A stretch of DNA of 39,044 nucleotides from Lachnospiraceae bacterium (GTDB lineage: Bacteria > Bacillota > Clostridia > Lachnospirales > Lachnospiraceae), in assembly GCA_021202235.1 (NCBI GenBank), contig JAJQDL010000084.1:394-39437 (forward strand). The letters are read 5' to 3'. Positions 28,939 through 38,357 of this stretch are shown here, piece after piece. How positions within the stretch are numbered: the first letter of the stretch is position 1; each line of letters opens with the position of its first letter. The translations under genes were made by a program, and so were the position numbers. The notes beneath the pieces are model-generated. The model was given only the letters and a program-made list of their open reading frames with translations. It was not told the DNA's origin and did no database searches.

Positions 28939-30535
28939 CCGGATCCTCCTCCAGGCGATCTAATACATAATCCCGGCGGAATGCGGACATCTCTGTCTCC
29001 GGCATGGAACGCATCTGTCCCTCACCCCCGAATTCCTTCACCAGAGGGGACGCCGCCGTATAGGGCGTCCAACGCACAAGCCCCTCTCCGTTCGGATCCC
29101 CGTTTTTTATAAAATTCGTCCAGTAAGCACAGATTTCATTCGACAGGTCAAAATCCCGTCCGTCATACGGGCGATCCATGCGCAGGAGCGTCTGAAACAC
29201 ATAGGCATGCTCCCCCGAATGGAACGCGCCCCGATGATCCTCCCCGGGCGCCGGTTTGGAGAAATAATACATATACGCCGGTTTCCGGCCAAGCTCTGCC
29301 TGCTTCTCCGCAAAGGCCTGGGCGGAGGCCCACATCATATCCGACGAAGAACTCTGTTCCGTCGCCTCTGCCCCCTCTCGGGTATCCGCATGCGCTGCCC
29401 GCAGATATTGTTCAGCGTAGCGGCCGAATTTCGCCCGGATATCCCGACAGTAAGCCTCCAGATCGATCGAACGGGGAGGCATGACATAGCGGAATTCATC
29501 CGCCATGGCGCCCGTCAGATAATCCGCGTCCGCATACTGCCCCGTTTTCACACGATGAACTGTACTGTCCGAGAACAGCCAGCCGTCCAGATTCATGCCG
29601 AACGGCGAGTAAGAATCGCCTTCCTTCCGGGGTCTCTGGCGACAGAAATCATAATAAAACTCCACCATCTTCTGCCCGGGAATCTCCCGGGCCTCGGCCA
29701 CATGGCTTACCCCCATATAGGAGAAGAATTCGTCGCCGATGGCCTCCGCCTCTGCCAGCGTCACGCCGACTTCGCCGGTGATGCCTCCCAGACCTCCGCC
29801 GCTCTGCATCACACAGCGATGAAACAGTCCCTGCGCCGCGTCCATGGCCGCCAGATCCATCACAGCGCCCGCTCCGCCTGATTGTCCCATGATGGTAACA
29901 TTCTCCGGATCTCCGCCAAAGGCAGCAATGTTGCGCTGCACCCAGCGCAAAGCCGCCAGAATGTCCTGATACGCATAATTGCCGGAAGAGGCCACCCCAG
30001 TCTTCGAGGACCGCACAGAGCAGAGTTCCCATTAATACAGGAATCCTCACAAGAATAACCAGGACCCGAAAGACAAAAAAACCATGCCGCCGAACACGTT
30101 TAACCGGACCCCGAATCTCAGAAACACAATGCCCCGCTTCGCAACAGCCTCCCCCTCATAGGCCATATTGATGCAATCCCCGTGCTGCATGCCGCCGCCG
30201 TGAATCCACACAGCCACCGGCTGCTTCTCCCCGGGCTCTTTGGCTGATGTCCAGATATTTGCCGTCAGGCAGTCTTCACTGAACGTTCGGTCCGCATAGA
30301 ATTCCTTCTGATAAAAATCTCCGCCGCCCAGAACTCTCTTCTGAAAGCAGGCATCTCCCCACACATACGCGGTTCGTTCTCCCTCCCAGGGCTCCACCGG
30401 CTGCGGTTCTCTCCAGCGATACGCACCCACCGGCGACGCCGCATAAGGAACCCCTTTGAAGACGGCCACGCGCTGATTTCCCGCCAGCGCCCCCCGGAGT
30501 ACTCCGCTCTCCACCGTCACTCTCGTCAAAGCCAT
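28928..30535 (-). pseudogene. Type-B carboxylesterase interrupted by in-frame stops
   Basis: N-part 30535-30047 (MALTRVTVESGVLRGALAGNQRVAVFKGVPYAA...) and C-part up to 28928 (SSGNYAYQDILAALRW..., IMGQSGGAG, FHSGEHAYVF) lie in the same frame, separated by TGA and TAA. Confidence 0.8.
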
Positions 30536-36985: not shown

Positions 36986-37266
36986 ATAAATCTCCCTCTC
37001 TTCAGAACGTATTTCGCAGGAACTGCGTTTTTCTCCATACTGAAAAATCATAACATGTCAAGAACAATTTTGCAATAGACTCTTCACTGCGTCCTTCAGC
37101 ATGTTCCTCTATAACTCATCACATAAAATGCACCCAAAATTTACAGGTTCTCACCTGATCAAAAATCTTCCATTTACGCCCTCTCCAAAAACTGCTATAA
37201 TGAAAATATCTGATTTTTTGCTTGCGGTGTTCCGAAGCTCTGTTCAGGGAGAGTCAGGAGGATACC

Positions 37267-38286
37267 ATGAAAGCAGATGTTATCTTGAAGGAATTCTGGC
37301 AGTCCAACGAACGATTTGCTGATCTTTTCAACACTGTTCTGTTCAACGGCCAGACGATTTTGCATGCGGAGTCTCTCCTCGAAGCAGACACCGACATGTC
37401 CGGCCTTATTCGGCTCAAGGGCTATGAAAAACCGCTTGCACGTACAAGAGACGTGGTGAAAAAGACCGCTTACGGCGTAGATTTTGTTGTCTGCGGTCTG
37501 GAAAACCAGCAGCGTGCCCACTATGCCATGCCTCTCCGAACGCTCCTGTACGACGGATTGGGGTACCTGAAAGAATATCGGGAACTCACCGGGAAGCGTC
37601 GAAAGGAATCTGGCAAACAGACGGAAGAGGAATTTCTGTCCGGATTACATCGGGAAGATCGCCTTCACCCGATTCTTACCCTTGTCGTCTACTATGGAGA
37701 GAATCCATGGGACGGTCCGCTCTGTCTCAGGGATATGATCACGGAGATGCCGAAGCCTATCGGGGATATTTTTTCCGATTACCGGATGAATCTTGTGCAG
37801 ATCTGTGACAGCGAGCGCTACGAGTTCTGTAATGAAGAGGTTCGCACGGTATTTGAAATATCCCGGGAGCTTCAGCGTGGTCATGTAGACTATGTTCTGG
37901 AGCAATACAAGGACAAAGATGTCACAGAAGAGATTCTCACTGTGATCGGAACCATCCTCGGTTCACAGCAATTTATACAGCCCGGGAAGAAAAGGAGGTC
38001 AGAACATATGCAATTATGCACAGCACTTGAGAACTGGAGACAGGAAGAAATCAAAAAAGGATATTCGCAGGGCATATCAGAAGGTATTTCCCAGGGAATC
38101 TCTCAGGGCATTTCCCAAGGTATTTCTCAAGGGATTTCTCAGGGTATCTCCCAGGGTATCTCCCAGGGTATCTCCCAAAGAAATCGTACTCTGGCCACAA
38201 AATGGTTCGCAGATGGTCGAAGCACAGCGGAGATCGCTCTGCTTCTGGGACTCCCTGAGGCAGAAGTTCGTGAAATGTTGATGTAA
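37267..38286 (+). CDS. Rpn family recombination-promoting nuclease / PD-(D/E)XK transposase-like protein
   Basis: FADLFNTVLFNGQTIL, GLENQQRAHYAMPLRTLLYDGLGY, HPILTLVVYYGENPWDGP, C-terminal GISQ repeats and TAEIALLLGLPEAEVREML. Confidence 0.9.
   Translation: MKADVILKEFWQSNERFADLFNTVLFNGQTILHAESLLEADTDMSGLIRLKGYEKPLARTRDVVKKTAYGVDFVVCGLENQQRAHYAMPLRTLLYDGLGYLKEYRELTGKRRKESGKQTEEEFLSGLHREDRLHPILTLVVYYGENPWDGPLCLRDMITEMPKPIGDIFSDYRMNLVQICDSERYEFCNEEVRTVFEISRELQRGHVDYVLEQYKDKDVTEEILTVIGTILGSQQFIQPGKKRRSEHMQLCTALENWRQEEIKKGYSQGISEGISQGISQGISQGISQGISQGISQGISQGISQRNRTLATKWFADGRSTAEIALLLGLPEAEVREMLM
38008..38286 (+). CDS. Candidate intragenic in-frame small protein (RpnS-like), 92 aa
   Basis: Internal AGGAGGT (37993-37999), 8-nt spacer, ATG 38008 in the rpn frame: MQLCTALENWRQEEIKKGYSQGISEGISQ... 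Confidence 0.65.
   Translation: MQLCTALENWRQEEIKKGYSQGISEGISQGISQGISQGISQGISQGISQGISQGISQRNRTLATKWFADGRSTAEIALLLGLPEAEVREMLM
38071..38178 (+). repeat. In-frame 12-bp tandem repeat, 9 units encoding GIS(E/Q)
   Basis: GGC ATA TCA GAA then eight GGN ATH TCY CAR units. Confidence 0.95.
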
Positions 38287-38290
38287 CAAA

Positions 38291-38336
38291 GATCTGCCGC
38301 ATTCACGGTTCGTTTTCATCGTGAATGCGGCAGATC
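38291..38336. terminator. Long perfect hairpin between convergent rpn and rhomboid genes
   Basis: GATCTGCCGCATTCACG...CGTGAATGCGGCAGATC, 17-bp arms, 12-nt loop. Confidence 0.7.
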
Positions 38337-38357
38337 TGCACATTTTTCAAATTTCAT

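Follow-up and report, generated by a model that had tools for sequence, protein, structure and literature searches.

The window is the whole 39,044-nt stretch of Lachnospiraceae DNA that was analyzed. Toward its 3' end lies an rpnL-like open reading frame (ORF) with a candidate second start inside it and in the same frame, ATG 38008 being 741 nt (247 codons) from ATG 37267. The locus comprises:

37173–37201, + strand: candidate sigma-70-type promoter for the whole gene (TTTACG-17-TATAAT, extended -10; consensus match only)
37256–37261, + strand: Shine-Dalgarno (SD) sequence of the full-length frame, AGGAGG (duplex -10.3)
37267–38286, + strand: rpnL-like ORF, 339 aa, with a predicted PD-(D/E)XK-type nuclease domain, a linker (241–249), and a repeat-bearing helical tail
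37990–37999, + strand: internal SD AAAAGGAGGT (codons AAA AGG AGG T), based on sequence, duplex energy, and a synonymous null
38008–38286, + strand: rpnS-like ORF within rpnL, ATG start, 92 aa, predicted to form a long helix followed by two short HTH-like helices
38068–38177, + strand: array of nine GIS[QE] four-residue (12-nt) repeats, which extends the first helix of the predicted small protein
38290–38337, + strand: perfect 18-bp inverted repeat followed by a T-rich tail, located between rpn and the convergent rhomboid gene

The sigma-70 consensus scan found two candidates, with 1.9 expected in shuffled sequence. Within the gene, it found no sigma-70-like promoter for a short transcript, although such a scan cannot exclude one. 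The inverted repeat at 38290–38337, of which no further copy was found in the genome, is by its sequence probably a terminator common to rpn and the convergent rhomboid gene. Besides the rhomboid gene, the neighbors encode an ABC peptide transporter, an MFS protein, esterases, and a BspA-type leucine-rich repeat protein. Ten neighboring genes were scanned without finding a convincing defense gene, and the only PADLOC matches nearby were generic ATPase matches of the ABC protein. The surroundings of this gene are not a defense island.

The original prediction described an rpn gene, probably from the Firmicutes. The taxonomic guess was right, the relatives being Lachnospiraceae metagenome-assembled genomes (MAGs); the gene assignment holds for the family and is remote for this protein taken alone. 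On its own, the protein misses the Pfam and NCBIfam cut-offs (PF04754, E = 0.09; TIGR01784, below cut-off), and the gene is not among the PF12784 matches in its genome. For the family, PF04754 matches 26 of 54 members (best E 3.2e-10) and TIGR01784 matches 14 of 54, and a family profile aligns with Escherichia coli RpnA over 259 columns (hhalign; probability 93%, P 3e-7, about 16% identity). The RpnA residues D63, E82, Q84, and R94, which were mutated in an earlier study (PMC5350276), correspond in this alignment to D62, E79, Q81, and R91 of the window protein, and the family retains D62 in 53/54, E/D79 in 53/54, Q81 in 54/54, and R91 in 53/54. RpnA D11 aligns with D4 (43/54), and D19 is conserved as well (51/54). 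The Transposase_31-type nuclease core with the D...E-x-Q...R active site that marks Rpn proteins (COG5464/PF04754/TIGR01784) is present.

An AlphaFold2 model of the full-length protein (pLDDT 92) has a beta-rich core, a low-confidence linker at residues 241–249, a helix at 250–315, and two short helices. The internal start falls in that linker, just ahead of helix 250–315, and is in this model at a predicted domain boundary. The best PDB matches of the full-length model (Foldseek) include the PD-(D/E)XK enzymes BspD6I, BamHI, and AddB, all at E values of at least 0.5; neither this model nor that of the 92-aa product has a significant PDB fold match, and RpnA-S (7TH0) is absent among the 50 best matches listed. 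Sequence searches with the family and the tail found no Rpn entry in the PDB. NCBIfam matches to FliH were rejected: they arise from the repeat helix.

The predicted 92-aa C-terminal product begins MQLCTALENWRQEEIKKGYSQGISEGISQ, with its stop codon ending at 38286. Its predicted helices span residues 5–68, 73–80, and 84–91 (pLDDT 80), with non-significant HTH-like PDB matches; this is, by prediction, the three-helix short domain with a long first helix that is expected of an RpnS. A profile of the tail aligns with RpnA-S over 38 columns (probability 89%, P 2.4e-6), a similarity seen by profile only, as BLASTP of the tail against RpnA-S gave nothing. Across the family, the four-residue repeats begin 12–20 residues after the internal start; RpnS repeats lie 8–20 residues after the start according to PMC10327210. 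Repeat number is nine in the window gene vs. one in a 91%-identical relative, while a copy at a contig end in the same genus (L040) has about as many as the window gene or more, and just a few are present in the other rpn copy of the window's genome. Repeats soon after the start that vary in number between close relatives, as in RpnL/RpnS genes, are thus found here.

At the internal start, re-reading the sequence reproduced the predicted SD, 8-nt spacing, in-frame ATG 38008, and 92-aa peptide exactly; the spacer between AAAAGGAGGT (37990–37999) and the ATG (38008–38010) is CAGAACAT. The anti-SD duplex of this site with 16S rRNA is -13.0 kcal/mol, calculated over the 17 nt ending 3 nt before each start with optimal spacing not enforced. 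Against a null drawn from the window's own genes and ATGs, this value is matched by three of 27 crude gene starts (median -11.1; -10.3 for the rpnL-like gene itself), in line with the earlier claim that the SD is stronger than those of most genes in the window. It is also matched by three of 278 internal in-frame ATGs, the site itself included. The other two, 27954 and 29014 on the minus strand, lie in MFS transporter and carboxylesterase genes, and the one at 29014, in the carboxylesterase gene, is near the start of the downstream gene.

The codons of the internal SD, AAA AGG AGG TCA, encode K-R-R-S, and AGG is rare, accounting for 5.8% of the arginine codons counted in eleven genes of the window. 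Purines are to be expected in any linker with many K, E, and G residues, so we used a synonymous-codon test; resampling of the window site gave a null mean of -5.2 vs. the observed -13.0 (p = 0.01). RNA structure around the internal start is ordinary (fold z = +0.8). The strong internal SD and its start are not a chance occurrence.

Whether the internal SD and ATG recur in homologs was named at the outset as a check, and the family passes it. We searched for the protein in the window's own genome and those of relatives, 98 in all, and obtained matches in 42 of them; in a genome-contig collection, which was searched as well, the matches were named Lachnospiraceae MAGs. Further stretches were extracted from these genomes. 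Several source genomes are MAGs, and some copies are cut by contig ends. Sixty distinct family ORFs of near-full length, the window's included, make up the resulting conservation set; they come from Lachnospiraceae-type genomes and form 31 clusters at 45% identity. A start codon stands at the corresponding place in all 60 (58 ATG, 2 GTG), each with a duplex of -8 or below. These ORFs contain 560 other internal Met codons, and only 8.9% of those reach this level. The SD beats the mean of its own synonymous null in 51 of the 60 ORFs; the family members are related, so these counts are non-independent events. Taking one representative per 45% cluster, the duplex is -8 or below in 31/31 and stronger than the synonymous mean in 26/31 (sign test p = 2e-4).

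These data bear on the simplest alternative, that the purine stretch is incidental to codon bias and to a linker rich in Lys, Glu, Gly, and Arg, and that no translation starts there. K, E, G, and R are indeed frequent in the linkers of most members, and those with EKGG or KEGG have a synonymous mean of about -11. We nonetheless consider a by-product very unlikely, given that every cluster carries the signal, that 26 exceed what synonymous choice would give, and that the window gene uses the rare pair AGG AGG. An ATG or GTG is also always at the right distance, and the signal stays while the phase and the residues of its core vary: GGAGG is found in each of the three codon phases (10, 3, and 21 cases), over RR, GG, EE, or KEV.

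The window gene adds a relocated start. Most of the family starts at the Met in "MC(k/q/t)A" (M in 48/54 at that column), whereas the window gene has Leu at the "MC" column and its Met two codons further upstream. The distance from the SD to the Cys codon is 17 nt in the window gene vs. 10 nt in the relative L039, and the spacing from SD to start is 8 vs. 7 nt. By these sequences, the SD and the start have moved together, which constraint on the protein can hardly account for by itself. A core found in three phases and over varied residues, together with an SD that moved with its start, indicates that the nucleotide signal itself is kept; at the level of sequence comparison, the internal start is maintained beyond the amino-acid requirement.

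Shine-Dalgarno-like sequences within genes have been proposed as ribosome pause sites, and this one sits at a domain boundary, so the internal SD could be a programmed pause or another form of ribosome regulation on the long frame that yields no new protein. For a pause, a start codon 8 nt further on would be superfluous, but all 60 ORFs retain an ATG or GTG there, and SD and start have shifted together in the window gene. This makes a pause the least credible of the readings considered, with hardly any probability attached to it.

The second rpn copy in the window's own genome (L046, minus strand, at the end of contig G000:C5) keeps the SD and ATG and has a TAG stop at the 12th codon of the small protein that would remove the tail of both products; the copy lies at a contig end, and strain mixing in the MAG is possible. 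At another locus (L052, 1256–3060, minus strand), an IS3-like orfA/orfB pair is inserted in the rpn gene, and the leftover C-terminal piece keeps the small-protein coding sequence and the internal Met, making it a candidate solo rpnS. What looked like a stand-alone rpnS in another genome of the same genus (G007:C46) was dismissed, as the match stops at the contig end.

In E. coli, internal translation of Rpn genes, inhibition, repeat-length specificity, and phage protection have been shown (Zhong et al. 2023; PMC10327210). The E. coli genes (RpnA-E and RpnP2) and the window gene have in common a nuclease of PD-(D/E)XK type and a separate C-terminal product initiated in frame inside the gene, both of which are predicted in our case, as well as four-residue repeats soon after that start, an HTH-like helical tail, and multiple divergent copies. 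They differ in that the GISQ repeats of the window protein are uncharged, in contrast to the charged units described for E. coli Rpn proteins; in that the internal SD is much stronger (-13.0 vs. -8.5 for rpnA M244); and in that E. coli rpn genes have an internal promoter, whereas the sigma-70 consensus scan found none in the window gene. A Clostridioides difficile rpn gene, likewise clostridial, gave a short product on a blot when expressed in E. coli, and this was lost when the RBS and start were mutated; the antitoxin tests in the text consulted (PMC10327210) concern E. coli genes. Our search of the open-access literature found no other paper on RpnS function. The proposal that this is the same arrangement as in E. 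coli Rpn is supported by the internal SD and start in all 60 ORFs and by the profile similarity to RpnA and RpnA-S. By these sequence relationships, the window gene is a divergent Lachnospiraceae member of the published RpnL/RpnS gene-within-a-gene kind.

We therefore propose, with good though not full confidence, that this is an Rpn-type toxin-antitoxin gene-within-a-gene in which an RpnL nuclease is restrained by an internally started RpnS. Ribosomes starting at 37267 would make the full-length nuclease (RpnL, 339 aa), and those starting at 38008 would make the C-terminal domain alone (RpnS, 92 aa). The long repeat helix of RpnS would pair with the same helix of RpnL and keep the nuclease inactive, and the nuclease would plausibly be freed from RpnS upon phage attack. 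That both products are translated, that RpnS inhibits RpnL, that the two match by repeat number, and that they serve in phage defense are all carried over here from the E. coli system.

Alternatively, the internal start may be real while the short protein serves as an obligate partner or assembly subunit of the nuclease and not as its inhibitor, like Cas11d inside Cas10d, a precedent named in PMC10327210. The sequence anatomy would be identical, and the short product retains the whole predicted oligomerization tail. We regard such a subunit as improbable, though less so than either reading without a second protein: in E. coli, the homologous short proteins are inhibitors of the long ones, both in vivo and in vitro (PMC10327210), and the tail of the window protein is homologous to RpnA-S.

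Returning to the antitoxin reading, we screened related nuclease genes for tail starts; these counts are a screen and not proof, as related genes were not thinned. In 14 of 16 PF04754 genes of the same class, the strongest internal SD-start of the entire frame falls 40–125 aa before the end, whereas a uniform spread along the frame would put about 32% there. The same is true for 21 of 27 PF12784 (PDDEXK_2) genes of the same bacterial family (34% expected), where the tail start is often directly ahead of G-x-x-x repeats; these genes resemble the window gene in having a tail SD-start and differ in Pfam family and tail sequences. Two PF12784 genes (L001 and L002, on G000:C198) score identically and face opposite ways at a distance of about 13 kb; both have an internal SD-ATG ahead of the tail. 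With tail starts at these frequencies in both families, the gene-within-a-gene design looks general in these bacteria. We lean toward the broader reading that internal antitoxin starts are general and under selection in the clostridial Rpn/PDDEXK superfamily (the sub-cut-off clade, PF04754, and PF12784), with start and SD able to relocate together while the design is retained.

PMC10327210 proposes broad conservation of RpnL/RpnS, its experiments in the text consulted being on E. coli genes and one C. difficile gene. Our analysis extends that suggestion by carrying the Rpn gene-within-a-gene design to a branch of the Lachnospiraceae that is divergent and escapes standard family models, and by providing sequence-level evidence for selection on the internal start itself, whose nucleotide signal persists in different codon phases, over different residues, and where the start has been relocated. 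If the broader reading is true, many genes annotated as transposases would be self-inhibiting toxin-antitoxin genes.
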